NCBI RefSeq assembly: GCF_003703975.1 | Contig: NZ_QTJY01000020.1 | Span: 1 to 64,000, forward strand | DNA: 64,000 bases | DNA from: Larkinella soli | Lineage (GTDB): Bacteria > Bacteroidota > Bacteroidia > Cytophagales > Spirosomataceae | Direction: 5' to 3' | Part shown: positions 4,234-59,358 of the stretch, piece by piece | Layout: each line of letters opens with the position of its first letter | How positions within the stretch are numbered: the stretch's first letter is position 1 | Notes under the pieces: generated by a model | Databases searched by the model: none | What the model was told of the DNA's origin: nothing | Seen by the model: the letters and a program-made list of their open reading frames with translations, nothing else | Translations under genes and position numbers: made by a program

Positions 4234-5847
4234 TTAGTAGCGGGCCAGAATGGGTTTATTGCCGAAAATGATCAGGCTTCTTAGGCGTACCGTGGCGTTC
4301 TTGTCGGGGTTGAGCAGCTTCAGCCGCAGGGTATGCTGACCGGGTGGCAGCTGGTACTTCCACGTCAGGTCGTAGCGACGACGGGTGAAACTGGCCGGTA
4401 AGTGGGCGGTCTCTACTTTCTTGTTATCTACATATACCTCCACCTGGGCGATGTAATCGCTTTCGTATTCGTATTGACCCGTCTGTACGTTTGGCCTGGC
4501 ATCGCCACTAAGTAGGAAGCCAATCCCCTCGAAACGGGTGGCGTATTCGTTTGCCTGATTGGGTGCATTCAGATTGGTATTGATCGCTCGCTTTTCAATT
4601 GGAAAATGGCCCGTAAAGTTCTGCTCCAGTCGGACGGGGGTAGGCGTTTGCAGGGCAATCGTCACCTGATCGCCGGTCACCTGCCCGCCCTGGCGCCCGA
4701 TCACCTGAAGAGCGTGCTTTAGGCCAAGGCGGTACACGTCATTGAGGGACAGGGTGGTGTACTTGAATTCAATGTCTTCGGCTTCTTTCAGGCCCATCTT
4801 CCAATAAGCGGGGATTTTATCGTAGCCAAGCATCACGCCTAGAATGCCGCCCGCCGAAGAAGGGTTACAGTCCGAATCCTGGCCGGCCCGAGTGCTGATC
4901 TGCATGGTTTTGGTGTAGTCGCCCTGCCCGTAGAGCAGCCCCAGCACGATGTAAGCCGAGTTGATTTTGGCGTCGATGTTGTAAGGAGCGAAGATGCCGT
5001 CGGAGCAACCCACATCGTCTGCCCATTTGCGCTGAATTTCCAGCCAGACCCGCTTCCAGTCGTTGGGGTACTGCTCATGCCAGTTGATTACGTCGGCAAT
5101 GCATTGATGGAACGTACTTTGGACTGGAATCGCTTTCAACCCCTGGCGAACTACGTAGTTTACATCGTTGCTTACAAAGGCCAGCGCATACATAGCGCCT
5201 ACGTACACCCCCCCGTACCAGCCGTCACCGGAGTTCATGATATGACCGATGGAGTCTCCCAGTTGGATGGCCGTATTGGGCATACCCGGCGCCATCAGTC
5301 CCGAGAAGTCCGCTTCAATCTGGAAGTCGATGTCGTCGGCGTGGGGATTATTCAGCCAATGGCCCGATTCAGGGGCCTTCATGCCATTAAGAATATTATA
5401 ACGACCCACTTGATTGGCATGCCAGAGCATATACTCCGCTTTGGCAAAGGCATTCGCGTGCTCACTGACCGGCGCGTCGAGACCTTTTTTCTCGAACACA
5501 TCGACAAACGTCAGATCCATGTAGAGGTCATCGTACAGGCCTACGTTTTCCAGCATTGTCTTTTTGATGTAGCCGTCATACCACGGAATAGGCTGGTAAT
5601 CGTTCATCATGGTGCCGTTGAACTTGAATTCCGTGGGTCCGCCAAAGGTGCAACCAATGACCTGACCGGCCCAACCGCCTTTGATTTTGTCCTGTAACAC
5701 CGCTTTGGTCATCGTGACGGCGGCACCCGGAACGGCGGCCTCCGGTACGCCGGCCGGCATTCCGACGACGAATGCTTTTTGGGTTGGCCTGGGGCCCCAG
5801 GCCAACAGGATCAATAAGGGAAGAAAGAGAAAAAAACGAAGTTTCAT
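4234..5847 (-). CDS. Exported ADP-ribosylglycohydrolase-family enzyme
   Basis: A 537-residue protein with an N-terminal signal peptide (about 1-23, FFLFLPLLILLAWG). An ADP-ribosylglycohydrolase-fold domain spans about 50-360, with GGWAGQ at 57-62, YDDLYMD about 105-111, HADDIDFQ at 159 and GQDSDCNPSSAGG at 322-334. The acidic clusters are the expected metal ligands of this dinuclear family. A C-terminal beta-rich domain (about 400-537) resembles a carbohydrate-binding or jelly-roll module. Family members cleave N- or O-ribosyl bonds. An exported version between ribokinase and a sugar transporter suggests periplasmic release of ribose from nucleosides, nicotinamide riboside or ADP-ribosyl compounds. 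The fold call is firm; the substrate is inferred. Confidence 0.88.
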   Translation of the reverse strand: MKLRFFLFLPLLILLAWGPRPTQKAFVVGMPAGVPEAAVPGAAVTMTKAVLQDKIKGGWAGQVIGCTFGGPTEFKFNGTMMNDYQPIPWYDGYIKKTMLENVGLYDDLYMDLTFVDVFEKKGLDAPVSEHANAFAKAEYMLWHANQVGRYNILNGMKAPESGHWLNNPHADDIDFQIEADFSGLMAPGMPNTAIQLGDSIGHIMNSGDGWYGGVYVGAMYALAFVSNDVNYVVRQGLKAIPVQSTFHQCIADVINWHEQYPNDWKRVWLEIQRKWADDVGCSDGIFAPYNIDAKINSAYIVLGLLYGQGDYTKTMQISTRAGQDSDCNPSSAGGILGVMLGYDKIPAYWKMGLKEAEDIEFKYTTLSLNDVYRLGLKHALQVIGRQGGQVTGDQVTIALQTPTPVRLEQNFTGHFPIEKRAINTNLNAPNQANEYATRFEGIGFLLSGDARPNVQTGQYEYESDYIAQVEVYVDNKKVETAHLPASFTRRRYDLTWKYQLPPGQHTLRLKLLNPDKNATVRLRSLIIFGNKPILARY

Positions 5848-7012: not shown

Positions 7013-8560
7013 ATGACTATCGAGGTGCTGCATCCCCTGGTCCATTCACTCACTAAGTCTGAAAAACGGTACTGCCGCCTGATGGCGGGACGGCAGGGAG
7101 GAGATAAACCGGACGCGGCCCGACCGAACGCGGCCCGACCGGACGCGGCCCGGAGCTTTGTGCGCTTGTTCGACTGCCTGCTCCGCCACGAAACGCCTGG
7201 CGAGGCCCTGACTGCCGACCTGGCCCGGCAGTTTCCCGGTGCCACGCTCGAAGCTGCCCGCAAATACTTGTACCGGGTGCTGATGCAGAGTTTGCGACAG
7301 TACGAAGGGGCCAAACGCCTTGAAGTGCGCATCGGTCAGTTGCTGCACGACAGTCAGATTCTCTACGAGCGGGGTCTGGTACAGTTCAGTCAGGATCAGT
7401 TGGAGAAAGCCCGAATGCTGGCGGAACAACAGGAACGAGGGCTGTATGTCGTTCTCGCTGCCCGGCAGCAGGTCGACCAGTGGGTACGATGGCAATTCGA
7501 CGGAGTCGATGAACCAACGCTGGCCAATCAACATGCGCTCATTCGGACTCAGCTCGAAGGGACGCAGACGGCCTTGCACCACGCTGCCCTCTACGAAACG
7601 CTGCTGCTCCGCTACCGAACTCAGGGTATGATGACCAGTGCCGCCGACAAGCTGCGGCTCAACGACCTGCTACTGGAAGAATATCAACTGTTGAACCGCC
7701 AAAACCGGGTCGGACCGCACGGGCGACCCGGGCTTATGCGGTCGTTCGCCATGCAACAGCAGCATCTGCACTTTCAATCGGCCTACTTTCGCATGATTGG
7801 CGATGGGGAGGGTAGTCTGCGGGTGTACCGTGAGTTAGACGCTTTGTTTCAACAGAACCCAACCCTATGGGCCGAGCAGCCGCTCTACTATGTTCAACTA
7901 CTGGAAGGAATTCTATCGGATTTGCGGCTATTGGAACAATACGCAGACATGCCGTTTTTTATCGACCGCCTGCGGCTCTTCGACACGCCCCTTCAGGGAC
8001 TGAACCACGTGGTTCCGTACGTGGTCCTCTACCATTCGCTGCTGTCCTTGGTCGATCAGCGTGGTTATACGGATGCGGCTGACTTACTCAAAACATTCCT
8101 CCCCCAGGGTCCAGCCTTTGAGCGCGGCCTGGCTCATCTGGCCCTACCCGCCCGCACTGAATTTGAGTTATTGCTGATTCGACTTAGCGTTGGTCAGGGG
8201 CAGTTGTCGGTGGGGCTGCGTCGGCTGAACCGGGTATTGGCCCGCCCCGCCCGGTCGCTGCCCCGGCCTTTGTACACGCAGATTCGGCTGATGCACCTGT
8301 TGCTTCTGGCCCGGCTCGGCAACGCCGATTCCCTGACTTACGCCCTGCGCTCGGTGGAGCGGAAATTAAGCGCTACCGGTGGCGGATCGGAGGGTGAACA
8401 GCTGGTCATAGCCCTGCTTCGGCACTGGTTAGCAGGTAAGTCATCCGCTGAACTCCTGATTCACCTGGATACCTTTAATGGTTCCCCTGCCGATCACCAG
8501 TTACTGAGGAACCTGGACGTACGACCCTGGGCAGAAGCGATGACGGACGGTTCCCAGTAA
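7013..8560 (+). CDS. Hypothetical helical-repeat (TPR-like) protein
   Basis: A 515-residue cytosolic protein, almost entirely alpha-helical and rich in Leu, Arg and Gln, with TPR-like helical hairpins but no clean TPR consensus. It starts MTIEVLHPLVHSLTKSEKRYCRL; this opening, with KSEKR, recurs in uncharacterised Bacteroidota proteins (recollection, not a search). I chose the ATG at 7013 over an in-frame TTG at 6989. A 15-bp tandem repeat at 7111-7152 inserts PDAARPNAARPDAAR near residue 36. It diverges from the ribokinase operon with a 161-bp shared upstream region. Function unknown. Confidence 0.8.
   Translation: MTIEVLHPLVHSLTKSEKRYCRLMAGRQGGDKPDAARPNAARPDAARSFVRLFDCLLRHETPGEALTADLARQFPGATLEAARKYLYRVLMQSLRQYEGAKRLEVRIGQLLHDSQILYERGLVQFSQDQLEKARMLAEQQERGLYVVLAARQQVDQWVRWQFDGVDEPTLANQHALIRTQLEGTQTALHHAALYETLLLRYRTQGMMTSAADKLRLNDLLLEEYQLLNRQNRVGPHGRPGLMRSFAMQQQHLHFQSAYFRMIGDGEGSLRVYRELDALFQQNPTLWAEQPLYYVQLLEGILSDLRLLEQYADMPFFIDRLRLFDTPLQGLNHVVPYVVLYHSLLSLVDQRGYTDAADLLKTFLPQGPAFERGLAHLALPARTEFELLLIRLSVGQGQLSVGLRRLNRVLARPARSLPRPLYTQIRLMHLLLLARLGNADSLTYALRSVERKLSATGGGSEGEQLVIALLRHWLAGKSSAELLIHLDTFNGSPADHQLLRNLDVRPWAEAMTDGSQ
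7111..7152 (+). repeat. 15-bp tandem repeat inside hypothetical gene
   Basis: The unit GGACGCGGCCCGACC is present about 2.8 times (7111-7125, 7126-7140, 7141-7152) with one substitution. It is in frame and encodes a (P-D/N-A-A-R) repeat, so copy-number change would alter protein length without a frameshift. Confidence 0.85.
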
Positions 8561-8632
8561 TTGGTACTTCAGCTGGTAGCGGATCGGCCAACAGGAAAGT
8601 TCAGGTAAGCTCCATCGAGTGGATGGCAGTAA

Positions 8633-10114
8633 TTACTTCTCCGATCGAAACTTTACCTGCTCCGGTTTGCTGCCGCCGGATCGAAGCGGTATATCGTCTT
8701 CCGAGCTAATCAGTTTTCCGTTCACCCGCACGTTCTCGAACGTCACCCCGCTCGTTCGGTTGTTCACCAGGGAAGGCACCGGTACCCCAGCCACCGTTAC
8801 GTCTTTAAACAGCAGGTTGGTCAAGCTTGATTCGGGGTTTTGCAGACCCAGTAAGGCGATTGGTTCCTCAAACCGAACCCCTTCGACGCGGTAGTTCCGG
8901 TGGGAAGCCCGGCCCTTCCTGTTCGGGCTGACCATACAGAATAAAGACCAGGGGGCGTACCATTCGCCCTTACTGATGTGGATCACGTCGGTATTTTTTA
9001 CCACCACCTGATCGGTTCGCAGCGCCTGCCCGTTGAAGCCGATTCGGAAGACGTTCGCCAGCGTCGTCCACAGCACACAATTTTCGATGTGAATGTCCGT
9101 CACTGCCCCCTCGGTCTCTTTATTCACCGCCCACATATCCTGACTACTATTGGGGGTAAAAAAGGCAAAACAGTCGTCCATGGAACGGATAAAGCTGTTG
9201 ATCACTTTGGTGCGTCCGCCCCCATACCAGTCGATGCCGTCGCCGTTGATGTTCTGTGGGTTCACCGCGATGACCTTGATGTTGTCGAACACCGCATCGT
9301 AGGTCGTATGGGTTTGCAGTGACCAGGTCCGGCTTCGCCCCACGAAGGTGATGCCCTGCACGAGAAGACCCTGTACGTTGTGGGTAGTGAGGGGGTGCCA
9401 CCTCTTTTGGTGCTTCCAGCCATCGTCATGCGTTTCCGACTGCGGACCGTAGTACACCACCGTACCCCGCCCTACAATGCGCACATTCCGGGCATCCCAC
9501 ACGTTGATGCTGCCAAACAAAACGGCGCCTGCGTCCAAATACAGGGTCTGCCCGCTTTTCAGGTCAAGGTGCTGCTGATGAAGGCCCGGTTTCAGGTGAA
9601 TGACATTGGGTGAGTTGAGATCAGGCCGGTGGGGATCGGGTCGGTTGGCGAACAAAAGGAGCGCGTCGTCTTTGAAGTGATGAGCCCCGGTTAGGCCTAT
9701 TCCAGCCCTTTCGACCGAGTATTGGCCTGCTTCGGACAGTGAAAAGTCGACTGAAAGCCCGTTTACTTTGGTTTCAATGCCCTTGGACAGGGGTCGTACC
9801 AAAGCCGCGCCCCTCCAATAGCCCATCGAGTCTTCTTTCGCAATTTCTTTATTGGAGGTCTGCCCGGAATACGAACCGGAGTTGGAATTGGCCCTCACGC
9901 GCACGTCGGCCTTACCCGTAAAATCAAACGAAGCAAAATAGACGTTAAGCCCTGCGTGAAAGACGGGAACCGGCCGACCATTGACGGTTACTACATAATA
10001 ATCCGATGCAAACTCCTCTGGTACGGGATGCGGGGTGAGTGTCTGCCCATAACTGTGGATGCCGGCCAGCAAAGTCAGGCAAAAAGCGAGGATTGGGGTC
10101 AGGTTTAAGTTCAT
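8633..10114 (-). CDS. Exported parallel beta-helix glycosidase (GH28-like)
   Basis: A 493-residue exported protein. It has a signal peptide (about 1-24, cleavage after SYGQ), an N-terminal beta domain (about 30-160) with the pattern VVTVNGRPVPVFHAG, then a right-handed parallel beta-helix. The helix carries NGDGIDWYGGG (290-300) and SMDDCFAFF (311-319), which place Asp residues as in the NTDG and DD motifs of polygalacturonases (GH28). The domain order also recalls GH49 dextranases. It is probably periplasmic or surface-located and acts on a pectic or other acidic polysaccharide. It is convergent with the upstream TPR-like gene and not linked to a SusCD pair here. Confidence 0.82.
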   Translation of the reverse strand: MNLNLTPILAFCLTLLAGIHSYGQTLTPHPVPEEFASDYYVVTVNGRPVPVFHAGLNVYFASFDFTGKADVRVRANSNSGSYSGQTSNKEIAKEDSMGYWRGAALVRPLSKGIETKVNGLSVDFSLSEAGQYSVERAGIGLTGAHHFKDDALLLFANRPDPHRPDLNSPNVIHLKPGLHQQHLDLKSGQTLYLDAGAVLFGSINVWDARNVRIVGRGTVVYYGPQSETHDDGWKHQKRWHPLTTHNVQGLLVQGITFVGRSRTWSLQTHTTYDAVFDNIKVIAVNPQNINGDGIDWYGGGRTKVINSFIRSMDDCFAFFTPNSSQDMWAVNKETEGAVTDIHIENCVLWTTLANVFRIGFNGQALRTDQVVVKNTDVIHISKGEWYAPWSLFCMVSPNRKGRASHRNYRVEGVRFEEPIALLGLQNPESSLTNLLFKDVTVAGVPVPSLVNNRTSGVTFENVRVNGKLISSEDDIPLRSGGSKPEQVKFRSEK

Positions 10115-47767: not shown

Positions 47768-48958
47768 ATGAAAATTATTGACCTACGGACCCGCTGCGTC
47801 GCCATTCCGCTGAACGCTCAGCTGCGCCACAACACCGGCGTTCATCCCGGCTATTTTCTCCGGACCATCCTGGAACTCATTACCGACGAAGGGATTGTGG
47901 GCCTGGGCGAAGTGGGCGGGGGCGATCAGCGCGGGGCGTTGCAGAAGCTGAAACCGCGCATCCTCGGCGAAGACCCGTTCCATCTGGAGAAGATCAAGCT
48001 GAAAGTGCTGCGGAGCATCTATTACCTCTCCAATGCCCGGCTGTATGCCGCCATCGAAATGGCCTGCCTCGACATCCAGGGCAAGGCGATGAACCGGCCT
48101 CTCAGCGACCTGCTCGGCGGGCGGGTTCGCGACGAAGTGCCGTTCATCGCCTACCTGTTCTGGCGCTACGACCGGCCGCAGGGGGGCCACGACGAAACCG
48201 CCGAGGACATGGCCGACCTCTGCCAGGAACTGCACGAAACGCTGGGCGTGCGGGCCATGAAGCTGAAAGCCGGTGTCATGGCTCCCAAAGAGGAAGTCCG
48301 GGTGCTGGAACTGTGCCGCGACCGGCTGGGCGACGACTTCGGCCTGCGCATCGACCCCAACGGCGTGTGGTCGGTCGCCACGGCCGTGCAGATGGGCCAC
48401 CGCATGGAAGACCTGCACCCCGAATACTTCGAGGACCCCGCCTGGGGCCTGGAGGGCAATGCGGCCGTCCGGAAGCAGGTCCGCATTCCGGTCGCCACCA
48501 ATATGTATCCCGCCCGGTTCGACGACCTCGGCCCGGCCATCCGGCTCGGGGCCGTCGACATCGTGCTGACCGACCTTCACTACTGGGAAGGGCCCCGGGG
48601 CGTCAAGGACCTCGTGGCGGTCTGCAACACCTTCAACCTCGGCGTCGCCATGCACAGCGGGGCCGAGTTCGGCATCGAGCTGGCGGCCATGATCCATACG
48701 GCGGCCACCCTTCCGACCATGACGTTCGCCGGCGACGCCCACTACCACTACCTCACCGACGACATCATCGAAGGCGGCCCGATGAAGTACGAGAACGGCG
48801 CCATCCGGGTGCCGACCGGTCCGGGGCTGGGCGTCAGCCTGGACGAAGACAAGATGAAGCGTTACGAAAAATACTACGAGGAAAAGGGCGACTATTACGC
48901 CCGCTTCCACCAGGACCCCTACCGCCCCGACTGGTTTCCGACCGTCAGCGGCATTTAA
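47768..48958 (+). CDS. Enolase-superfamily dehydratase (glucarate-dehydratase-like)
   Basis: A 396-residue cytosolic enolase-superfamily enzyme. Active-site pattern: KLK at 165-167 (the KxK base), IDPNG (Asp196, Asn198), YFEDP (Glu222), TNMYP, LTDLHYWEG (Asp269) and AMHSGAEFGIE (His296). The Asn-containing metal triad and HSGAE match the glucarate dehydratase subgroup, whose members convert aldarates such as D-glucarate to 5-keto-4-deoxyglucarate. The exact acid is uncertain. 42 bp after GH10; left and right arms therefore each carry one enolase-superfamily dehydratase of a different subgroup. Confidence 0.88.
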   Translation: MKIIDLRTRCVAIPLNAQLRHNTGVHPGYFLRTILELITDEGIVGLGEVGGGDQRGALQKLKPRILGEDPFHLEKIKLKVLRSIYYLSNARLYAAIEMACLDIQGKAMNRPLSDLLGGRVRDEVPFIAYLFWRYDRPQGGHDETAEDMADLCQELHETLGVRAMKLKAGVMAPKEEVRVLELCRDRLGDDFGLRIDPNGVWSVATAVQMGHRMEDLHPEYFEDPAWGLEGNAAVRKQVRIPVATNMYPARFDDLGPAIRLGAVDIVLTDLHYWEGPRGVKDLVAVCNTFNLGVAMHSGAEFGIELAAMIHTAATLPTMTFAGDAHYHYLTDDIIEGGPMKYENGAIRVPTGPGLGVSLDEDKMKRYEKYYEEKGDYYARFHQDPYRPDWFPTVSGI

Positions 48959-48978
48959 CGGTATTCCCCGAACGAAAG

Positions 48979-51507
48979 ATGCGATATCTGACCATAGCCC
49001 TGTTTCTGCTGCTGTCCGCCTTCCGGCCGGGCCTGACCCAGTCGGTCAGCCTGTCCGTGACCGATCATGTCATCGACCTCACCCGGTTCGACTGGCGTTT
49101 TGTGGCTCTCGCCCCCAACCCGGCGTCTACCCTGAAGGAAGTCGACGCCCGGACGGACTGGCGTCCGATCCGGGTCGGGAAGCGCTGGGAGTTTCTGGGC
49201 CATCCCGAACTGAAGGACCAGACCGTCTGGGTCAAATTCACCTTCCGGGTACCGGCCGCCCTGAAGGCCTACCGGGTCGGCTTTTTCGCCACCATGATTG
49301 ACGACGAAGGTGCGGTGTATCTCAACGGCCGCCCGGCGGGCCGGTTCAAATACCTGACCGGGGGCAAGGTGCCCCATCCCGTCGATATCGATTTGACGCC
49401 CTACCTCGACTATGACGGCGAAAACACCCTACTGGTCGAGATTCGGGATGCGGTTACGCAGCGGATGGGGGGCATCATCGGCAGCGCCTGTCTGTACAAA
49501 ACCCTGCCCAACACCCTGACCGCCGACGGCGGCATCGGACTGGCCGCCCCGGCCGACGAGCCGCTGGGTGTGCTGCTGCACCAGGGCGATGCGCGGCTGG
49601 TGCAGGGCGAACGGCAAACCTTCACCGCCGGGCAACTGGCGGGCCTGCGTACCCCGCCGTCCATTCTGCGGGGAGATGAACTGATCATCGTCGCTCCGGC
49701 CCGGCACCTGCCCGCCACCCGGCTCCGGGTGGACCTGGATGCCGTCCAGCCGACTTCAGCCGACGACTCGCTGACGCTGACGAGCCAGCCCCTGCCGGCC
49801 ACGGTGGGACTGTATGAACTGCTCCGGATTCCGGTGGAGGTGCGGGGCACCTTCCGCAATCCCTTCGATCCGAAACAGATCAGCGTGACGGCCGTCATCG
49901 AGACGCCCTCGGGACGGATCGAGAAGGTGAACGCCTTTTTCGGGCAGGATTTCGAGCCGGTCGGCCTGAACGCCGAGGAGGAAATTCTGCTGCCGTTGAA
50001 GGGCAACCCGTGGAAGCTTTATTACCGGCCCCGCCAGAAAGGGCGGCACAAGGTGGAACTGTTCGCCCAGGACCGTCACGGCCTGAAGCGCATCGAAGCC
50101 GGTAGTTTCGAGGCCGTTTCCTCCGAGGCCCGGGGCTACCTCCGCAAAAGCGCCGTCGACCCCCGGCTGTATGAATTCGACAACGGCGAGCCGTATTTCG
50201 GACGGGGACCGAGCGGCTGGTTCCGGGGCAGCCGGTTTCTGTTCGGCGGCAATATCCGCTGGGTGCCCTATAAACTGCTGGACGAATACTACGACCGCAA
50301 GCAGGCCAACGGCAGCAATTTCGAATACCTGGCCACCTTCCATTTCGGAACCCTCTACCTAAAAGACGGTTTCATCGACCAGCACGTCGCCTGGAAGATG
50401 GAACAGGCCCTCCGGAGCATGGAACGTCACGGCCTGTACTGGATCGTGTTCCATGACGGGGTTCTCCGCTCCTACCAGAACGGGTTTGAAACGCTGCCCT
50501 ATTCGACCGCCCAGGGCGGCCCCTGCCGCACGATCAACGAGGTGTATACCCACCCGGTGGCGCTCGAAATGCAGAAAAACGAACTCCGCTACATGGTAAG
50601 CCGGATGGCCGACAGCCCCTCGCTCTGGCTCTGGAACTGTGGCGACGAATCACAGCCCGGCACCCGGCTCTCGAAGGTCATGGTCCGCGACTGGCTGAAG
50701 GAACTGCACGGTTTTATCCGGCAGACCGATATTTATGAACACTCGCATTCCATCGGAGAATATGAACTGGCCGTTCTGAACGGCGGGGACGTGGTCCTGC
50801 TGGGCGACTGGTATTACCACAACGACAACCGGGGCGATGAGTACGACCAGCTCTGCAACGGCGAGAAGAGCCGGGATGCCGTCGCCTATAATCTCTGTCT
50901 GCAGGAAAAATTCCGGGACTGGAAAATTCCGGTCGTCAACATCGAGGGCGGTATTTGCCAGTGGGAGAATTTCTCCTGGCTCAGTGGCGAGAAGTATAAA
51001 AAGTTTCCGGAAGCCATCGACTTTCATCAGCACCTGTGGCTCAGCCTGTTCACCAAAATGGCGGCCGGCGGCACCGAGTGGCTCAACCAGGCGCTGGACG
51101 AGATGAACGAACTGTACCATGCGAAAGCCGTCGAAAACTACCTCCGGGGAGAGCCGCTGACGCGGGTGTTCCATGAACCGGTCGCACCGGCGGTGTCGGA
51201 CCCGGGGTTGCAGGCCTTCGGATTGCAGACCGACCGCAAAACCCTGGTCTGGGTCAACAACCGGTTCTATAGCTGGTACCACATCGGGGTGGAGAAAAAA
51301 GCGCCGGTTCCGGTGCGGAACGCCCGGCTGGCGCTGTCCGTCAAACAGCCGGGCACCTATCGGGTCGAAGTCTGGGATACCCGGAAAGGCGTCGTGGTGG
51401 GAACCTCCTCCCTGAACGCCGAAAACCGGACCCTCACCATCCCCCTTCCCGAAGTGGACAAGGATGTAGCGCTCAAGATCGCCCGTCTGCAACCGCCCGC
51501 CCGTTAA
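48979..51507 (+). CDS. Exported unclassified glycoside hydrolase
   Basis: An 842-residue exported protein (signal about 1-20, ending RPGLTQS). An N-terminal GH2-like sugar-binding jelly roll (about 25-185) includes YRVGFFATMIDDEGAVYLNGR. A beta domain follows (about 290-380, DUF5060-like), then a TIM barrel from YEFDNGEPYFGRGPSGWF to about 720. Candidate catalytic acids are Glu in LWNCGDES (WNxGxE pattern) and Glu in VVNIEGG. A C-terminal beta domain closes the chain. I cannot place it in a numbered GH family; it loosely resembles GH5/GH140-type clan-A enzymes. The start is the ATG at 48979, 20 bp after the dehydratase; the open frame continues far upstream but only as a shadow of that gene. 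Confidence 0.78.
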   Translation: MRYLTIALFLLLSAFRPGLTQSVSLSVTDHVIDLTRFDWRFVALAPNPASTLKEVDARTDWRPIRVGKRWEFLGHPELKDQTVWVKFTFRVPAALKAYRVGFFATMIDDEGAVYLNGRPAGRFKYLTGGKVPHPVDIDLTPYLDYDGENTLLVEIRDAVTQRMGGIIGSACLYKTLPNTLTADGGIGLAAPADEPLGVLLHQGDARLVQGERQTFTAGQLAGLRTPPSILRGDELIIVAPARHLPATRLRVDLDAVQPTSADDSLTLTSQPLPATVGLYELLRIPVEVRGTFRNPFDPKQISVTAVIETPSGRIEKVNAFFGQDFEPVGLNAEEEILLPLKGNPWKLYYRPRQKGRHKVELFAQDRHGLKRIEAGSFEAVSSEARGYLRKSAVDPRLYEFDNGEPYFGRGPSGWFRGSRFLFGGNIRWVPYKLLDEYYDRKQANGSNFEYLATFHFGTLYLKDGFIDQHVAWKMEQALRSMERHGLYWIVFHDGVLRSYQNGFETLPYSTAQGGPCRTINEVYTHPVALEMQKNELRYMVSRMADSPSLWLWNCGDESQPGTRLSKVMVRDWLKELHGFIRQTDIYEHSHSIGEYELAVLNGGDVVLLGDWYYHNDNRGDEYDQLCNGEKSRDAVAYNLCLQEKFRDWKIPVVNIEGGICQWENFSWLSGEKYKKFPEAIDFHQHLWLSLFTKMAAGGTEWLNQALDEMNELYHAKAVENYLRGEPLTRVFHEPVAPAVSDPGLQAFGLQTDRKTLVWVNNRFYSWYHIGVEKKAPVPVRNARLALSVKQPGTYRVEVWDTRKGVVVGTSSLNAENRTLTIPLPEVDKDVALKIARLQPPAR

Positions 51508-51532
51508 CGAACCACCTCTTTCCGAACCGATC

Positions 51533-52537
51533 ATGCGCCCTGCCTTAGACCTGTTTTTTCCACCCACCCCCGAACAGCTGACGTTCGCCAAACAGATCGG
51601 CGTGGACGACGTCGTCCTGTTCGGTACCAGCCTCGAATCCTGGTCCGAGCTGTCGTTCAAGAACCTGATTGCCATCCGAAACCGGGTAGAGGACGCCGGC
51701 CTGCGCCTGTTTTCCATCGAAACCTTCCCGGCCCGCTTCTACGACCGGATCATGCTCGGCAAACCGGCCGGGACCGAGCAGTTGCGGGCCTACCAGGAAG
51801 CCGTCGACAACATGGGCCGGGCCGGCATCCGGCACCACAGCTACAACTGGATGCCGACGGGCGTCTGGCGAACCACCTACAGCCACCGGCTGCGGGGCGG
51901 TGCGCGCGGCATTGCCTTCAATCAGGCCGACATCGATCGGGCGCCCCTGAGCTTCGACCGGGTCTATGAGGAAGAGGAGTTCTGGGACCATTACAGCCGG
52001 TTCATCACCGAACTGCTGCCGGTGGCCGAGAGCGCCGACGTGAAGCTGTCCGTCCACCCGAACGACCCGCCCATCGCCAGCATCGGGGGCGTCCCGCAGT
52101 TGTTCCGGTCGCGGGAGGCTTTCGACCGGGCGTTGGCCCTTCGCCCCTCCGGCCACCACGGGCTGACGTTCTGCCTCGGGGGCTGGTCGGCCATGGGCTT
52201 CGGCGCCACGATGGCCGATGTAATCCGGGCCTACGGACCGCAGGGCAAACTGCATTATGTTCATTTCCAGTCCCATAACGGCGTGCCGCCTTTCTTCTCC
52301 GAAAACTTCGCCGAACTGGCCGATTACAACCCGTTCGCCGTGGTCCGGGCGTTGCAGGAAGTCGGGTTCGACGGGGTGATGATCCCCGGCCACGTGCCGC
52401 AGCTCGACGGCGATTCGGAATGGCGGAACACCTACACGGTCAGCGACGCCCGCTATACCCACCCCATGGGCGGCCACCGGGCACGGGCCTACACCATCGG
52501 CTTCATGAAAGGTCTGATCTCGGCATTGAACGCATGA
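51533..52537 (+). CDS. uxuA: Mannonate dehydratase
   Basis: A 334-residue UxuA-family enzyme that dehydrates D-mannonate to 2-keto-3-deoxygluconate in the cytosol. Family marks: KLSVHPNDPP (metal His), IGGVPQLFRSREAF, LHYVHFQSHNG, and the C-terminal GGHRARAYTIGFMKGLI. HFQ appears where E. coli UxuA has HFR. Slightly shorter than E. coli UxuA (about 394), as for compact family members. Its stop overlaps the next start as ATGA (52534-52537), coupling it to the solute-binding-protein homologue. Confidence 0.88.
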   Translation: MRPALDLFFPPTPEQLTFAKQIGVDDVVLFGTSLESWSELSFKNLIAIRNRVEDAGLRLFSIETFPARFYDRIMLGKPAGTEQLRAYQEAVDNMGRAGIRHHSYNWMPTGVWRTTYSHRLRGGARGIAFNQADIDRAPLSFDRVYEEEEFWDHYSRFITELLPVAESADVKLSVHPNDPPIASIGGVPQLFRSREAFDRALALRPSGHHGLTFCLGGWSAMGFGATMADVIRAYGPQGKLHYVHFQSHNGVPPFFSENFAELADYNPFAVVRALQEVGFDGVMIPGHVPQLDGDSEWRNTYTVSDARYTHPMGGHRARAYTIGFMKGLISALNA

Positions 52538-53679
52538 AAACCCTACGCGGCATCACCTGGAACCACACGCGCGGCTACGCTCCCCTGGCCGTCACCTCGA
52601 AGGTCTGGAACGACTTCCACCCCGAGGTCAGTATTCACTGGGACATCCGGTCGCTCCAGTCGTTCGGGGAGGAAGGGCTGGACACCCTGGTGCGGCAATA
52701 CGACCTGCTGCTGATCGACCATCCGTTTATCGGGACGGTCGCCCGTTCGCGTCTGTTCGTACCGCTGGACGACCATCTGCCGGCCTCCGACCTGGCCCTG
52801 CTCCGCAGCCGGACCGTGGGCGCTTCGTTCGGCAGTTACGAGTACGGCGGCCACCTGTGGGCACTGCCGGTCGATGCGGCCGCGCAGGGGTCTGTGGCCC
52901 GCCGGGACTGGTTCGAGCGCGAAAACCGGCCGCTTCCCGCCAACTGGAACGAGGTGCTCGAACTCGCCCGGGAAACGGGCAAAGTCGCCATGCCGATGGC
53001 TCCCATGGGTTTGCTGGGAGCGTTCTTCTCGCTGTATGCCAACCAGTTCGCTCCGCCGTTTCAGGATGAGGAGTGGGCCATGGACGACGAAAAAGCCGTT
53101 TTTGTCATCAATCAGCTGTCGGCCTTGTATGACCTCATCGGCTCCGACGCTCTGAACCAATACCCGGTGGCCCTGCTGAACCGGATGGGCCAAACCGACG
53201 AGCTGGTCTATATGCCGATCACGTTCGGCTATGCCAACTACGGCATGGCCGGGTATGTCCGGCACCCGCTGACGTTCGGCCCCCTGCCCGGCGCCCGGCC
53301 CGACGGAGCCACGCTGGGCGGGGTAGGGCTGGCCGTGTCGGCCTCCTGCGAGCACCTCGACGTGGCAGTGGCCTACAGCCGCTGGGTCGCCGGTCCGGAA
53401 TGCCAGTCGACGCTGTATCCGCTGAGTGGCGGGCAACCCGCCGGACGGGTTGCCTGGGACAGCCCCCTGCTGAACGAGCTGACCCACCAGTTCTACCGCA
53501 ACACCCGCGAAACCGTTGAACGGGCGTTTGTGCGGCCCCGGTTCGACGGTTTCCATGACTTTCAGTCCAAAGCCGCCCGGCTCCTGCAACGGAGCCTGAT
53601 AGGCGATCTCCAGCCCGGAACCGTTATCCGGCAATGGCAATCCTTTTATTCTGCCGCCTACTATGCGTTTAATTCATAA
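52534..53679 (+). CDS. Solute-binding-protein homologue lacking a signal peptide
   Basis: A 381-residue protein with the fold pattern of extracellular sugar-binding proteins (SBP family 1): KVWNDFHPEVSIHWD, YDLLLIDHPFIG, LWALPVDAAAQGSVARRDWF, PANWNEVLELARE, GGVGLAVSASCEHLDVAVAYSRWV. It begins MKTLRGITWNHTRGYAPLAV with no hydrophobic leader and no lipobox, and no in-frame upstream start supplies one; upstream is inside uxuA. No ABC permease or ATPase is near. It is coupled by ATGA to uxuA and overlaps the SDR gene by 17 bp, so it looks made in the cytosol as part of the pathway. Possible roles are intermediate carrier, sensor or enzyme subunit; none is proven. Confidence 0.85.
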   Translation: MKTLRGITWNHTRGYAPLAVTSKVWNDFHPEVSIHWDIRSLQSFGEEGLDTLVRQYDLLLIDHPFIGTVARSRLFVPLDDHLPASDLALLRSRTVGASFGSYEYGGHLWALPVDAAAQGSVARRDWFERENRPLPANWNEVLELARETGKVAMPMAPMGLLGAFFSLYANQFAPPFQDEEWAMDDEKAVFVINQLSALYDLIGSDALNQYPVALLNRMGQTDELVYMPITFGYANYGMAGYVRHPLTFGPLPGARPDGATLGGVGLAVSASCEHLDVAVAYSRWVAGPECQSTLYPLSGGQPAGRVAWDSPLLNELTHQFYRNTRETVERAFVRPRFDGFHDFQSKAARLLQRSLIGDLQPGTVIRQWQSFYSAAYYAFNS

Positions 53680-54451
53680 AAAAGCCCTCGTTACGGGCGC
53701 GTCTCAGGGAATCGGGCGGGCCATCGCCCTGCGGCTGGCCCAGGACGGCTGCACGGTGGTCGTGCATTATCACCACAACCGAGAGGATGCCGAGGACGTC
53801 GCCGGACTGATCCGGGCCGCCGGAAGCACCGCCCACCTGCTCCAGGCCGATCTGGCCGATGCCGCCCAGGCCGTGCGGCTGGGTGAGCAGGCATGGACCG
53901 TCGCCGGGGGGCTGGATTTCCTGATCAACAATGCCGGAGTCTCCTACAAAAAGCACTTCCTGGACGTCACGGAGGAGGATTTCACCCGGTTTTCGGACCT
54001 CAATTTCAAAGGAACGACGTTCCTGACCCAGGCCGTCGCCCGGAAAATGGTGAAAGCGCGGGTGGAAGGAAGTATTTACACGATCACCTCGGTGAACGGC
54101 ATCCGGCCAGGTCTGGGCCTGTCGTTGTACGGAGCCACCAAAGGCGCCCTGGAAACCCTGATGAAAGGCGTTGCGATGGAACTGGGGCCGCACGGCATCC
54201 GGGTCAATACCGTCGCCGTCGGGGCAATCGAAACCGACATGAACCGGGCGGTTTGGGAAGACCCCGACCGGCTCCGGGAAGTCAACGAAGGCATCCCGGC
54301 CGGGCGGTTCGGCCGGCCCGACGAGGTGGCGGCCGTGATCGCCGACCTGCTGGCGTCGGGCAGCTACCTCACCGGCGCGACCATTACCCTCGACGGCGGA
54401 CTCCTGCTCATGCGGGGCTACGGCAAACCGGGCCATTATGAAGAACCTTAA
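53663..54451 (+). CDS. SDR oxidoreductase, right arm
   Basis: A 262-residue classical short-chain dehydrogenase: TGASQGIG (11-18), NNAG (89-92), catalytic Ser about 143 (TITSVNG), and Tyr156-xxx-Lys160 (YGATK). The first 17 bp overlap the binding-protein gene. It lies next to uxuA and may act as an alternative fructuronate (UxuB-like) reductase or as an aldose/uronate dehydrogenase. The left-arm SDR has the same fold but is not adjacent to a mannonate dehydratase. Confidence 0.9.
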   Translation: MRLIHKKALVTGASQGIGRAIALRLAQDGCTVVVHYHHNREDAEDVAGLIRAAGSTAHLLQADLADAAQAVRLGEQAWTVAGGLDFLINNAGVSYKKHFLDVTEEDFTRFSDLNFKGTTFLTQAVARKMVKARVEGSIYTITSVNGIRPGLGLSLYGATKGALETLMKGVAMELGPHGIRVNTVAVGAIETDMNRAVWEDPDRLREVNEGIPAGRFGRPDEVAAVIADLLASGSYLTGATITLDGGLLLMRGYGKPGHYEEP

Positions 54452-54462
54452 CCTTTTATGTC

Positions 54463-57342
54463 ATGAAAAAACTGCTTTTTCTCGTGTTGGGTCTGTTCGT
54501 CGGTCAGGCGGCCGGGGCGCAGTCCGCGCCTGAAGCGAAGAAACTCTGGAGCCCCTACCGCATCACGCCCCGCCAGGGCGCCCAGCACCTCGATCTGTCG
54601 GGCAGCGGCTGGGAGCTGTCGTATGCCGACCAGCCGGTTGCGGACCTCCGCCAGCCCCGTCAGGGAGCCTTCCCGACCAGCGTGCCGAACTCGGTACACT
54701 GGTCGCTGCACAAGGCCGGCAAACTGCCGCATCCGTATTACGCCCGCCATTCCACGAAATACCGCTGGGTGGAGGAAAAAGCCTGGTACTATAAAAAATC
54801 GTTCGACCTGCCTGCCTCGCCCGAGGGCAGCTACGTGTTCCTGTGTTTCGACGGGGTCGATTATTTCTCGAAAGTCTGGGTGAACGACAGCCTGGCCGGG
54901 GTCCATGAGGGGATGTTCGGCGGGCCGTCGGTCGAGGTCAGCCGCCTGCTCAAACCGGGTCAGAAAAACGAAATCACCGTGGAGGTGCGGGCGGGCAACT
55001 GGGGAAACCGTGCTACCGATTACGAAAACCTCCCCCGGACGGCTTCGGGCGAGTTCGACTATTCGAAACGAACGGGCTTCAACCCCCGCGCCAGCGGCCG
55101 GATCATCAAGCCCTGGGTCATTTCGGGCGGCTCCGGCGGGGAAGCCTTCTTTACCGTCGGCATGTGGCAGGGCGTCCGGCTCGAAATCGTGCCGCCGATC
55201 CATCTCGAACGGCCGTACCTGACGACGAAAAGCGTGAGCGGCCGGTCGGCGCAGCTTCATCTGTCGGCGGAGCTGTTCGGCCGTGCCCATTCGCTCCAGA
55301 AACAGCTTCACCCCTGGAACAACACCCAATTGAACCACCCCAACGAAAAGGGAACGTCCTTCAGGCCGCTGGCCGACAAGCTGAGCGTTCTGGTCGAGTT
55401 CACCTTCGGCGGAGGCACCGCCCTGACGAAAGAATTTCCCGTCACGGCCTACGAGGGCCGCATCTGGCTCGAAGAAGACCTGAGCCTGCCCGACGCCCGG
55501 CTCTGGCAGCCCAACGGACTCGGTGAGCCGAACCTGTACCGGGTCCGCCTGACGCTGAAACAGAACGGCACTCCGGTGGATCGGATCGGCTTCGATTACG
55601 GCATCCGGACCATCGAGCGCATGCCGACCGCCGGCCCCCGGATCGCCGACCGCTGGGAAAACTGGCAGTTTATCGTCAACGGGCGCAAACTCTTCGTCAA
55701 GGGCATGAACTTCACCCCGCAGGACATCCTGCTCGACCTGCCCGCCGAGCGGTACCGCTGGACGCTCGAAGCCGCCCGGAAAATGGGGGTTCAGCTGGTC
55801 CGCATCTGGGGCGGGGGCCTGCTCGAAACCGAGACGTTCTACAAACTCTGCAATGAACTGGGCCTCATGGTCTGGCAGGATTTTCCGATCGGCAATCAGG
55901 ACACCCCCGACTACCCGCAGGACATCTGGGAGGCCCAGGTGGTTCAGAACATCGTCCGGCTGCGCAACCACCCCTCGCTGGTCGTCTGGAACGGCGGCAA
56001 TGAGTTCAACCCCTACTCCAGCGGCAACGCCACCTCCATGGGAATCATCGAACGGAACCTCGACATCTTCGACAAAAGCCGGTTTTATGTCCGCACGACG
56101 CCCGACGACGGCTCGATGCATGCCTACCCCGACATGGACCCGACCTGGTACAACCGCAGTTACCGCTTCGAGCCCTGGGTATCGGAAACGGGCATGCACA
56201 GCATCCCGGAAGCGGGCGTATTCTACGAAACCGTGGACGCCAAGGAGTTTACCGGCCTGGGCAAAATGTGGGACAAAAGCTTCGGCCCCTCGCATCCCGA
56301 ATTCATCCACCATTTTACCGAGTACGGCCCCGGCCGGGTGCCCCGGATGCTGAGCCGGGCGTCGCACATCTCGGACGTCACCGACCCCACCATCGAAGCC
56401 ATCTCGGAAGCCTCGCAGGTGGGCGCGGGCGAGTTCTACCAGATCCTTTCGGAGAAGATGCAGGGTAACTATCCGGTCACGGCCGGGCTGATGCCCTGGG
56501 TGTTCAAGCGGCACTGGCCCGTGATCGCCATTCAGATGATGGACTGGTTCGGTCAGGCGGCCGCCCCCTATTACTTTCTGAAACGGACCTACGAGCCCAC
56601 CCACGTCGCCGTGGACCTGCCGCGCCTGCTCTGGAAGGCGGGCGAAACCATCCCGCTCGCCGTTAAGGTCACCCACGCCGGGACGAACGCGCTGCCCGGC
56701 ACGGTTTCGGTCAGCGTGTGGGATGATGCCTTCCGACCCCTCTGGGCGAAGGAAGTCCGGCTGACGGCCTCGACCGGCCCTTCCGTGACGAGCGCATCGG
56801 CGGGCAGCTTTACCATCCCGCCTGCCTACAAAGACCGCTTTCTGTTCATCGTCTCGGAACTGAAGGATGCAGCGGGCAAACTGGTGTCGCGGTCGGTGTA
56901 TTTCCCTCGCTCCCTCACGAAGATGGACGATAAAGCCTTCTACGACCAGTATCTGGCTGAGCCGATTGCCTGGCCGACGCTGGAGAAGGGCCCCTTCCTG
57001 AAACCGACCGTGCAGAAATCGGCGACCCGCCTGGAAAGCCGGCTGCTGTCGATGAAGAAACTGGACGACACCCGCTCGCAGCTGGTGGTGCAGGTCCGCA
57101 ACACCGGCACCACGCCCGCCTTCATGACCAGGATCGACCTGACCGGGGTGAAAAGGGCGCTGGTGGCCGACGATAACTATTTCTGGCTCGCTCCGGGCGA
57201 AAGCCGGAGTCTGTCGGCGGACATCCTCTGGCGGGAAACCCCGGCCGGCAACGTGCAGGTCGTCGTTTCGGCCTGGAATGCTCCGGAAGTGACGGTGCCG
57301 CTGGACACCAAATCGGTCTTGATTCAATCCTCAGCCCGATAG
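54463..57342 (+). CDS. Glycoside hydrolase family 2 (beta-mannosidase-like)
   Basis: A 959-residue exported GH2 enzyme. Signal peptide about 1-19 (LFVGQAAGAQ); sugar-binding jelly roll (about 45-250); immunoglobulin-like domain; TIM barrel with LVRIWGGGLLETETFYKLC, acid/base Glu514 in NGGNEFN, and nucleophile Glu575 in VSETGMH. C-terminal beta domains follow. The RIWGGG and GNEF patterns are those of beta-mannosidase / exo-glucosaminidase subgroups, not of beta-galactosidases. It probably removes terminal mannose or an amino/uronic sugar in the periplasm. 11 bp after the SDR gene. Confidence 0.9.
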   Translation: MKKLLFLVLGLFVGQAAGAQSAPEAKKLWSPYRITPRQGAQHLDLSGSGWELSYADQPVADLRQPRQGAFPTSVPNSVHWSLHKAGKLPHPYYARHSTKYRWVEEKAWYYKKSFDLPASPEGSYVFLCFDGVDYFSKVWVNDSLAGVHEGMFGGPSVEVSRLLKPGQKNEITVEVRAGNWGNRATDYENLPRTASGEFDYSKRTGFNPRASGRIIKPWVISGGSGGEAFFTVGMWQGVRLEIVPPIHLERPYLTTKSVSGRSAQLHLSAELFGRAHSLQKQLHPWNNTQLNHPNEKGTSFRPLADKLSVLVEFTFGGGTALTKEFPVTAYEGRIWLEEDLSLPDARLWQPNGLGEPNLYRVRLTLKQNGTPVDRIGFDYGIRTIERMPTAGPRIADRWENWQFIVNGRKLFVKGMNFTPQDILLDLPAERYRWTLEAARKMGVQLVRIWGGGLLETETFYKLCNELGLMVWQDFPIGNQDTPDYPQDIWEAQVVQNIVRLRNHPSLVVWNGGNEFNPYSSGNATSMGIIERNLDIFDKSRFYVRTTPDDGSMHAYPDMDPTWYNRSYRFEPWVSETGMHSIPEAGVFYETVDAKEFTGLGKMWDKSFGPSHPEFIHHFTEYGPGRVPRMLSRASHISDVTDPTIEAISEASQVGAGEFYQILSEKMQGNYPVTAGLMPWVFKRHWPVIAIQMMDWFGQAAAPYYFLKRTYEPTHVAVDLPRLLWKAGETIPLAVKVTHAGTNALPGTVSVSVWDDAFRPLWAKEVRLTASTGPSVTSASAGSFTIPPAYKDRFLFIVSELKDAAGKLVSRSVYFPRSLTKMDDKAFYDQYLAEPIAWPTLEKGPFLKPTVQKSATRLESRLLSMKKLDDTRSQLVVQVRNTGTTPAFMTRIDLTGVKRALVADDNYFWLAPGESRSLSADILWRETPAGNVQVVVSAWNAPEVTVPLDTKSVLIQSSAR

Positions 57343-57346
57343 CGGT

Positions 57347-58624
57347 ATGGAAAAACCGACTCAGACCCTGCCTCCGGCTCCGGTGCGCCCCGGCTCCCCT
57401 GCTCCCTCCGGCCGGATGCGCTGGGAACTGCTGGTGCTGCTCTGGCTGGCCTTCTTCCTGAACCAGGCCGACCGGCAGATTTTCAGCGTCGTGCTGCCGC
57501 TCATCCGGGCCGACCTCGGCCTGACGGACGCCGAACTGGGGCTGATTGCCTCCGCGCTGGTGTGGACCTACGGCCTGCTGGTGCCCATCGCGGGTTTCCT
57601 CGGCGACCGCTTTTCGCGCCGGAACATCCTGGGGTTCTGCCTGCTGTTCTGGTCGGTGGCGACGCTGTCTACGGGCTTCTGCGCCACCCTGCTTCAGTTC
57701 ATTCTGCTGCGGGGTGTCGCCACGGGCGGTGGGGAAGCCTTTTATGCGCCCTCCGCCAATGCGCTGCTGGGTGAAACCTATCCCGAAAAACGGGCGTTCG
57801 TGCTGTCCATTCACCAGACGGCGGTGTATTTCGGGATCATTCTGAGCGGCCTGATCGCCGGCTACGTGGGCGAACGGTACGGCTGGCAGCGGGCGTTTTA
57901 TCTTTTCGGCGGGTTCGGAATCCTGCTGGCAGTTCTCTTCTTTTTAAGGATTCCCAAAGATCAAGTGCAGCCCCCGGCGGACGGTGAAACCCGCGCCGGG
58001 GTAGGCCGCACCGCCCGGGTGATCGTCCGGAAACCGACGGTCGTGCTGCTGACGCTGGGCTTCGGCTGTATGGTGTTCGTCAACGTCGGCTACCTGACCT
58101 GGATGCCTTCGTTTCTGGTCGAAAAGTTCGGGCTGAGCCTGACCCAGGCGGGGTTTTCGTCGCTTTTCTACCACCATCTGGGTGCGTTTCTCGGCGTTCT
58201 GTCCGGTGCCCGGATCGCCGACCATTTCGCCCGGACCAACGCCCGCGCCCGGCTGGTGGTCCAGGCGATGGGTCTGCTGCTGGGCGCTCCGTTCATCTAC
58301 GCGATGAGCCGGGCCGATACCCAGACCATCACCTACGTCGCCCTGTTCGGCTTCGGACTGTTCAGGGGCTGGTATGATTCCAATATCGTGGCCTCCCTCT
58401 ACGAGGTCGTTCCGGCCCGGATGCGCTCCTCGGCCTATGGGCTGATGCTGGCCTGCGCGTTCCTGATCGGGGCGTCGGCTCCGTACTGGCTGGGCGCGCT
58501 GAAACCGACGCTCGGCCTGTCCACCGGCCTGGCCTGCCTGGCCCTCCCCTATCTGCTGGGAAGCCTGTTCATCGGGACGGCCGCCTTCCGGTATTTTTCC
58601 CTGGATCAACAACCTGTTCAATAA
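57347..58624 (+). CDS. MFS transporter, sugar-acid (ACS-type), right arm
   Basis: A 425-residue 12-helix major-facilitator permease, paralogous to the left-arm MFS. Shared motifs are LAFFLNQADRQIF, the loop 2-3 GDRFSRRNILG, TGGGEAFYAP and SIHQTAVYFG. The first about 25 residues are Pro-rich and cytosolic. It probably imports the monomer released by GH2/GH10 or the unclassified glycosidase. It starts 4 bp after the GH2 stop. Confidence 0.9.
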   Translation: MEKPTQTLPPAPVRPGSPAPSGRMRWELLVLLWLAFFLNQADRQIFSVVLPLIRADLGLTDAELGLIASALVWTYGLLVPIAGFLGDRFSRRNILGFCLLFWSVATLSTGFCATLLQFILLRGVATGGGEAFYAPSANALLGETYPEKRAFVLSIHQTAVYFGIILSGLIAGYVGERYGWQRAFYLFGGFGILLAVLFFLRIPKDQVQPPADGETRAGVGRTARVIVRKPTVVLLTLGFGCMVFVNVGYLTWMPSFLVEKFGLSLTQAGFSSLFYHHLGAFLGVLSGARIADHFARTNARARLVVQAMGLLLGAPFIYAMSRADTQTITYVALFGFGLFRGWYDSNIVASLYEVVPARMRSSAYGLMLACAFLIGASAPYWLGALKPTLGLSTGLACLALPYLLGSLFIGTAAFRYFSLDQQPVQ

Positions 58625-58644
58625 TCGAAAAAACGTACAACTAT

Positions 58645-59358
58645 ATGGAAATCATCGCCAACACCTATCCGGTCCGGAAGCACGCCGTCAACTACGACCC
58701 GGCCGAAATTGCCGACCGCTATAAAAAGCTGTATGCGGCTTTAGTCTCCGACGCGCTCGAACACATGGGTTACCACAGCCAGTGCATGGCCAGCGGGATC
58801 TATCCGCTGGTCCACACGATGAAGGTGGCCGGGCCGGCCTTCACCGCCCACGGCATCGCCACCCCCAGCCGCGACGAAAAAGTCCACGACATCCGGCTCG
58901 GGATGTTCAAGAGCATGACGCCCGGGGTGGTGCAGGTGCGCGATACCCAGGGCGACACCTCCTGCGGGCAGTTCGGTGAGATTTCGGCCACGGCCGCGCA
59001 CGCGCACGGCTGCGTGGGAGCGGTCATCGACGGCTCGACGCGCGATTCGAACTATCTCATCGACATGGGATTTCCCACCTTCTGCCGGTTCCGGAATCCG
59101 GTGGAGGCCTTCGGGCGGTTCATGGTGGTCGATTATCAGATCCCGATCTACGTCAAGGGCATGGACGGGCTGCTGAAGATTCATCCCGGCGACTACATTT
59201 TCGGGGATAACGACGGCGTGGTGGTGGTCCCTCAGGAACTGACGATTCCCGTTCTCGAACTGGCCGAAGAATGGTTTGCCAGTGAAGGCCGCAGCCGCCA
59301 GGCGATGGCCGAAGGGCGCGACCCGTTCGACGTCTACGCGGAATACGGCCGGTTTTAA
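58645..59358 (+). CDS. RraA-like lyase (HMG/CHA aldolase family)
   Basis: A 237-residue protein of the RraA / class II HMG-aldolase family. The active-site motif is DGSTRD (129-134), preceded by GQFGEISATAAHAHG and SDALEHMGYHSQCM. Known members cleave 4-carboxy-4-hydroxy-2-oxo-acids or decarboxylate oxaloacetate; others are found in sugar-acid operons with unknown substrates. As last gene of the right arm it may process the aldarate- or uronate-derived 2-keto acid. It is not the RNase E regulator of E. coli by context. Confidence 0.85.
   Translation: MEIIANTYPVRKHAVNYDPAEIADRYKKLYAALVSDALEHMGYHSQCMASGIYPLVHTMKVAGPAFTAHGIATPSRDEKVHDIRLGMFKSMTPGVVQVRDTQGDTSCGQFGEISATAAHAHGCVGAVIDGSTRDSNYLIDMGFPTFCRFRNPVEAFGRFMVVDYQIPIYVKGMDGLLKIHPGDYIFGDNDGVVVVPQELTIPVLELAEEWFASEGRSRQAMAEGRDPFDVYAEYGRF

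Follow-up and report, generated by a model that had tools for sequence, protein, structure and literature searches.

A gene cluster for sugar-acid catabolism in Larkinella soli raises the question of what a solute-binding protein (SBP) that starts without a signal peptide does inside it. The gene, here called SBP1, lies in a window of 64,000 nucleotides (contig NZ_QTJY01000020.1, positions 1 to 64,000), to which all coordinates refer unless a locus is named. It occupies 52534-53679 of the forward strand, from an ATG at 52534 to a TAA at 53677-53679, and encodes 381 residues. A sequence-only reading of the window had described the product as an ABC sugar-binding protein made in the cytosol among catabolic enzymes. 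Our comparison of the family sequences supports well both a cytosolic place for SBP1 and its independence from transport, and it reveals that the usual genomic partner of the family is a class III CoA-transferase (CoAT).

The binding-protein pattern was borne out by profile and fold. Residues 55-289 matched PF01547 (SBP_bac_1) with 49.7 bits against a curated cut-off of 26 (E = 7e-13), and no NCBIfam model matched at E ≤ 0.01. An AlphaFold2 model, built from 45 family sequences (44 of the 66 listed ATG-start genes, alignment A2, plus the window protein), had a mean pLDDT of 94.3, a pTM of 0.92 and a first strand formed by residues 2-9. Foldseek and VIA-align matched this model along its whole length to exported sugar SBPs, with Z scores of 39.2 for 5iai and 6dtq and 39.1 for both SmoF (7ofy) and TMBP (1eu8). 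The alignment to 5iai took in 369 of the 381 residues, and the predicted model has the two-domain SBP fold; as modeled, SBP1 is a complete MalE-type SBP. Residue 1 of the model pairs with residues 2-4 of 7ofy, 1eu8 and the 6j-series (entry numbering, taken as that of mature chains) and thus SBP1 looks like a mature SBP made without a signal.

The gene start agrees with this picture. The N terminus reads MKTLRGITWNHTRGYAPLAV, and neither the annotated start nor a check of the upstream frame revealed a signal peptide or lipobox for export. The sole in-frame upstream start, at 52420 within the uxuA-like gene, would add 38 hydrophilic residues whose best 10-residue Kyte-Doolittle mean is −0.25, and therefore no signal peptide is hidden there. 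An upstream start with a signal peptide, which the sequence-only reading had named as grounds for abandoning its proposal, was thus looked for and not found. We also considered that SBP1 might be an exported SBP with a missed start; the hydrophilic extension and the family N termini, none of them signal-like, ruled this out. The gene is tightly packed, as the same reading had noted: in the ATGA at 52534-52537 the TGA of the upstream gene lies inside the start of SBP1, and the ATG of an SDR gene, at 53663, overlaps its 3′ end by 17 nt.

Relatives of SBP1 are numerous, with at least 584 confirmed in one profile scan of genome_contigs. Record titles place them in Bacteroidota, Acidobacteriota, Chloroflexota, Pseudomonadota, Bacillota, Verrucomicrobiota, Kiritimatiellota, Planctomycetota and Deinococcota. 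Plasmid records also matched (152); among the 30 plasmid matches listed, 21 are labeled "extracellular solute-binding protein" or "ABC transporter substrate-binding protein" (or the carbohydrate form of these), and nine have no listed feature. Neighborhoods were compared in the best 80 of the at least 584 matches to a window-led query, a nonrandom set that includes close relatives. Neighbors were labeled by BLAST matches (E ≤ 1e-6) to about 50 reference proteins, and the absence of a neighbor carries little weight in the 24 loci that fall short of 16 kb. Together with seven plasmid loci, these made up 87 loci with 88 SBP1 genes. Starts were chosen by script as the candidate nearest the aligned start; they lie 2-10 residues ahead of the sequence G[IM]TW in 87 genes and 22 residues ahead in the other. 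No in-frame upstream start exists within 60 codons in 53 of the 88, and an upstream start with a hydrophobic stretch was found in two only, the close Flavobacterium relatives L071 and L072. A signal-like N terminus was seen in none of the 99 family members examined. The highest N-terminal 10-mer hydrophobicity among them was 1.68, against at least 1.78 in 11 of the 13 exported SBPs taken from these loci; the low scores of the other two (L041 and L103) probably stem from misplaced starts. Family members carry the motifs LxG[IM]TWxHxRG, YDLLxIDHP, GGQP and RPR, all of which the window protein fits, its signal-less start standing just before the first.

The gene most often found beside SBP1 encodes a CoAT. 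A class III CoAT was present in 75 of the 80 loci, a MaoC hydratase in 69 and a Gfo/Idh dehydrogenase in 60. The CoAT lies on the same strand within 250 nt of SBP1 in 65 loci and overlaps it in 44. All three CoATs tested matched PF02515, and the equivalent of D170 in the CoAT of locus L022, which we take to be the class III catalytic Asp, is kept in 123 of 123 aligned CoATs (two of 125 were omitted for length). The sequence-only reading had suggested a survey for signal-less genes next to uxuA and SDR genes. That setting does exist, in one small clade, and it is not the general one, in which SBP1 adjoins a class III CoAT, mostly with MaoC. Five loci are free of CoAT (L028, L029, L032, L097 and L084). 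No CoAT was detected at E ≤ 1e-30 in the genome records of the UxuA-coupled L028 and L029, a weak result for L028, whose record holds only 1.5 Mb. The genomes of L097 and L032 carry a CoAT elsewhere, that of L032 in two pieces on separate contigs and accompanied by a 33% homologue.

Presence across genomes followed the same pattern. We searched a phylum sample of 296 genomes and an order sample of 390, each including the own genome and some genomes being common to both, with a CoAT threshold of E ≤ 1e-60 that was fixed before the search; we take the SBP1 and CoAT searches to have covered identical samples, on the strength of matching sample sizes and of the genome handles listed for each. Excluding the own genome, SBP1 (E ≤ 1e-10) was found in 15 of 295 genomes and CoAT in the identical 15 of the phylum sample; in the order sample both were found in the identical 24 of 389. 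The CoAT carriers span nine of 140 genera and 10 of 130, respectively, and genera such as g40 and g187 hold both carriers and noncarriers of the pair. Copy numbers also track each other, as four of the five genomes with four CoATs have two SBP1 genes (G398, G433, G446 and G524). About 60 kb of a single contig separates SBP1 from the CoATs in G341. There is a strong correlation, as would go with an obligate role of SBP1 alongside CoAT.

Several CoAT arrangements deserve separate mention. At L074:9135-11432 and L095:9321-11699, CoAT1 and CoAT2 occupy one open frame, a possible natural fusion that suggests that paired CoATs function as a unit. Fusion of SBP1 itself to CoAT was dismissed, as the stop-to-stop frames of the candidates (L040, L051 and L075) show none. 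Locus L056 (Ammoniphilus) has two SBP1 genes in a single cluster (4662-5813 and 7992-9137), one with a crotonase, an AMP-binding protein and a CoAT as neighbors, the other with MaoC and a CoAT. L030 (4886-6805), L033 (6268-8004) and L036 (5073-6794) each encode, next to SBP1 and its class III CoAT, a second CoA-transferase, of PF01144 type and about 570-640 residues; SDR and SMP-30 genes accompany them.

Conservation within the family extends to the predicted cleft. Across the 99 sequences, 54 positions are conserved at 95% or more, and the window protein keeps 53. Pocket positions were mapped by alignment to TTHA0356 rather than from model coordinates. Equivalents of D70, which we take to have a ligand-pocket role, and of R356 are retained (D62 and R334); D118 is replaced by A116, and W287 corresponds to position 264, where the window protein has Val and most of the family Thr. 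TTHA0356 entry titles name the mutants D118A, W287A/F and R356A. Kept in at least 98 of the 99 sequences and judged by eye against SBP alignments to be specific to SBP1 are, among others, H11, R13, W36, R39, H63, D114, Y233, Y236, Q301, W308, R336 and Q344. This pattern suggests a pocket for one ligand class, which would differ from oligosaccharides.

The window belongs to the small clade with another partner. In a quick tree of 109 rows, which has long branches for L021, L026 and L056_4662, the window protein groups with L021, L029 and L028 (59% identical), with SH-aLRT support of 99, amid CoAT-coupled rows. UxuA adjoins SBP1 in three of the 80 loci (L028, L029 and L033), on the Microvirga plasmid L021 and in the window; it lies directly upstream in L021, L028 and L029. 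The window protein (51533-52537, forward strand, 334 aa), characterized by Pfam and NCBIfam scans and motif alignment, had been called uxuA in the sequence-only reading. The coupling stands, through the ATGA overlap; the name does not, as the protein is a divergent UxuA-like one that scores below both NCBIfam cut-offs (120.7 bits where 191 are required, and 82 where 199.55 are). Moreover, where 3ban and 1tz9 have PDH in the RPDH motif, the four SBP1-coupled proteins of this clade (window, L021, L028 and L029) have PGH; PDH is retained in the second UxuA of L021 and in that of L033. The Asp of this motif is presumably a metal ligand in UxuA. An ordinary UxuA mannonate dehydratase was ruled out as the window partner by the subthreshold scores together with the Gly, and given the Gly alone the protein is probably not a standard enzyme of that kind. 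A second UxuA homologue, 31% identical, is encoded on contig C11 of the own genome. A search of the order sample for further loci of the window type was negative: no SBP1 exceeded 41% identity, and the UxuA relatives detected at E ≤ 1e-30 outside the own genome (389 genomes) stayed at or below 33%.

We consider it probable that SBP1 works in catabolism within the cytosol, independently of any transporter, with the complete sugar-SBP fold and a binding cleft retained. It would act on sugar acids or the corresponding lactones at the stage of dehydration; the likeliest role is that of an enzyme, and the next that of an obligate subunit presenting the substrate. The strict co-occurrence with CoAT and the conserved pocket positions would favor either of these roles over storage. 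Reading the surrounding pathway from family names, a Gfo/Idh or SDR enzyme would convert a sugar to its lactone, which an amidohydrolase, an SMP-30 protein or possibly a second signal-less SBP (SBP2, below) would open. CoAT, together with MaoC or, at one SBP1 of L056, with a crotonase, would dehydrate the resulting acid as a CoA ester, in a module like CaiB/CaiD in which CoA is put on the acid, water is removed and CoA is passed to the next molecule. Alternatively, UxuA-like and MR/MLE enzymes would dehydrate the free acid; in the window clade, a UxuA-like protein takes the place of CoAT and MaoC. Aldolase-type proteins would act next, as part of a nonphosphorylative sugar pathway, and SBP1 would be the constant part while the dehydration partner changes. 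A broader proposal, to which we give somewhat less than an even chance, is that MalE-type SBPs became cytosolic enzymes or catalytic subunits at least twice, as SBP1 and as SBP2, in one CoA-dependent pathway of sugar-acid dehydration that spans many phyla, the latter perhaps replacing a fuconolactonase-like amidohydrolase, and that the window clade switched from CoAT to a UxuA-like protein lacking the RPDH Asp.

The family's resemblance to importer receptors makes it necessary to ask whether SBP1 is after all a conventional SBP of ABC importers that leaves the cytosol by an unrecognized route and serves a transporter encoded elsewhere. The fold matches importer SBPs, the own genome has one CUT1-like importer, and ABC genes stand near SBP1 in some alphaproteobacterial loci. 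However, none of the 99 N termini is signal-like, and a PF00528 search of 22 SBP1 genomes, which gave at least one match in 20 and in all 14 control genomes, gave none at E ≤ 0.001 in G163 and G206, whose completeness is printed as 100. SBP1 can therefore hardly serve a BPD_transp_1 importer in these two carriers, which already contradict the importer explanation. Many alphaproteobacterial loci do have importer genes after SBP1 and CoAT, namely those for a distinct SBP, a pair of permeases and an ATPase; such further SBPs of importer-bearing loci have a signal-like start in 11 of 13 cases (two of the 13 from other phyla), and since the nearby importer has its own SBP, SBP1 is probably not its receptor. 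The own genome (G000; 6.9 Mb, 99.98% complete, one SBP1 copy) tells the same story. It has two SBP_bac_1 genes in total, SBP1 and one on contig C4 (L114:8075-9346) whose product starts MRYLLLLSVLLVPACE, a lipoprotein-type signal. Each of the four BPD_transp_1 permease genes found in it belongs to a system with an SBP other than SBP1, which goes against the cognate transporter elsewhere that the sequence-only reading had named as a possible refutation. On C2 the permease is ModB (237.5 bits against a cut-off of 182.6), with ModA (162.3 against 62.5) and an ATPase next to it; the C14 permease is fused to a betaine-type SBP domain and has a ProV-like ATPase as its neighbor (best models below cut-off). 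SBP1 could in principle share one of these permeases. Nor was an ABC permease or ATPase found among the eight proteins scanned in the window (SBP1 and seven neighbors, 47768-59358), in agreement with the same reading. We thus give the importer explanation hardly any credence, and the proposal of an SBP fold made in the cytosol within catabolism is strongly supported by the absent signals, the two carriers without a detected permease and the same-genome co-occurrence with CoAT. As a separate observation, positions 216-222 kb of C4 (L114) hold a complete CUT1-like importer in this Bacteroidota genome, comprising the lipoprotein-type SBP, two permeases, a protein without a Pfam match and an ATPase with a MalK OB domain.

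Two explanations leave SBP1 in the cytosol and give it other work. As a sensor or buffer, it would bind a sugar acid and control an enzyme or regulator, or hold a reactive keto acid. The D70 and R356 equivalents of sugar SBPs kept in the cleft fit such a role, as do the IclR-type regulators labeled in 24 of the 80 loci; but no IclR was labeled in the other 56 or is present among the eight window proteins scanned, whereas CoAT is present in 75, and co-occurrence within genomes is stricter than expected of an accessory buffer, making this explanation unlikely. Alternatively, SBP1 would serve the CoA-transferase or dehydratase as a structural subunit or scaffold, taking no part in ligand binding and keeping the SBP fold as a relic. 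Such a role would account for the tight coupling to CoAT (overlap in 44 of 80) and to UxuA in the window, and CoAT1 and CoAT2 in one open frame at two loci suggest an assembly. Yet the conserved positions include sugar-pocket equivalents, and the window protein keeps 53 of the 54 despite its non-CoAT partner, which would be odd for a pure interface; we see only a small chance that a scaffold is the answer.

Returning to SBP1 as a catabolic enzyme or obligate subunit, several observations weigh against this assignment. Pocket conservation alone would fit a dedicated binder equally well, and the 87 loci checked yielded no fusion of SBP1 to an enzyme. No CoAT was found in the metagenome-assembled genome of L084, and G385, with one SBP1 match and four CoATs, departs from the copy-number rule. 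The Fisher p values of the SBP1-CoAT co-occurrence, 1.7e-25 (phylum) and 8.9e-39 (order), are uncorrected for relatedness, and in the alphaproteobacterial loci described above an importer lies close by. The own genome has no class III CoAT at E ≤ 1e-60, and the partner in the window is therefore deduced from the three other UxuA-coupled loci. Finally, the ligand class, the reaction and any physical contact of SBP1 are matters that we infer.

SBP2, labeled by similarity to the SBP2 of L022, is found in 30 of the 80 loci, usually after the CoATs in Bacteroidota (for example, L022:10661-11788 and L098:11604-12842). Both SBP2 examples scanned matched PF01547. The annotated SBP2 start in a Rufibacter record is probably too far downstream; extended SBP2 frames begin ...FRIAVRKFGPFESA, with no signal by eye. 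A model based on 13 of 17 listed genes (alignment A3) had a pLDDT of 90.9 and a Z score of 45.8 to 1eu8. In the tree, the four sampled SBP2 sequences stood apart from SBP1, near exported SBPs and on long branches. SBP2 and an amidohydrolase on the strand of SBP1 (21 of 80 loci) never occurred together (Fisher p = 6.7e-6, uncorrected), and eight SBP2 loci have an amidohydrolase on the opposite strand. The sole amidohydrolase scanned (L024, opposite strand) came nearest to L-fucono-1,5-lactonase, with 104.5 against a cut-off of 400.

The neighbors of SBP1 in the window are all on the forward strand. Upstream of the uxuA-like gene lie an MR/MLE (enolase superfamily) protein resembling sugar-acid dehydratases (47768-48958), whose nearest NCBIfam model is glucarate dehydratase (160.6 vs. 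a cut-off of 828.7), and a protein of about 842 residues (48979-51507, scanned from 48970) with an N terminus that looks signal-like by eye and no Pfam match. Relatives of the latter adjoin SBP1 in L028 and L029. Downstream of SBP1 are the SDR oxidoreductase (53663-54451, profile scans), a glycoside hydrolase family 2 protein (54463-57342, Pfam scan), an MFS transporter (57347-58624) and an RraA-like aldolase family protein (58645-59358, profile scans). The MFS protein is nearest to the NCBIfam model of the D-galactonate transporter (130.6 vs. a cut-off of 395) and would presumably serve uptake.

On present evidence, the transport-receptor labels on public SBP1 records are wrong on both place and role. 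The question lends itself to direct testing, given the strict co-occurrence, the small size of the operons and the availability of cultured hosts. A search of the open PMC literature, a weak one, found no paper title on a cytosolic SBP of this kind or its CoAT cluster. Among known systems, the window partner resembles UxuA (3ban and 1tz9) in its HPxDPP, LTFC and H/F motifs and aligns to 3ban with E = 4e-30; it differs in the Gly shared by the clade and in its subthreshold scores. CaiB-CaiD is the carnitine CoA-transferase/hydratase module, and SBP1 loci likewise pair a class III CoA-transferase with a hydratase that would act on a hydroxy acid. Unlike that module, they have sugar-pathway genes and SBP1 as an extra component, MaoC replaces crotonase except beside one SBP1 of L056, and the two CoATs tested, both from L022, miss the cut-offs for carnitine, formyl, oxalate and glutarate by a wide margin. 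If SBP1 is an enzyme, these loci point to a CoA-dependent route for sugar acids, of which we know no description. With CUT1/MalE-type SBPs (PF01547; 7ofy, 1eu8, TTHA0356 6j9w and 5iai) SBP1 has in common the whole fold (Z 39.0-39.2), the GG and RP motifs and the D70 and R356 equivalents. Unlike them, it is signal-less in 99 members, has CoAT and MaoC or UxuA as partners, has lost the Asp118 and Trp287 equivalents and is carried by two genomes without a detected BPD_transp_1 permease. MqnA and MqnD are enzymes with an SBP fold, and the known enzymes of this kind come from other SBP branches than the MalE type; we know of no cytosolic MalE-type case among them. PMC7683729 offers a precedent in SBPs that evolved into enzymes, such as cyclohexadienyl dehydratase. 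If SBP1 is likewise an enzyme, it would add a MalE-type case to the binding proteins turned catalysts.

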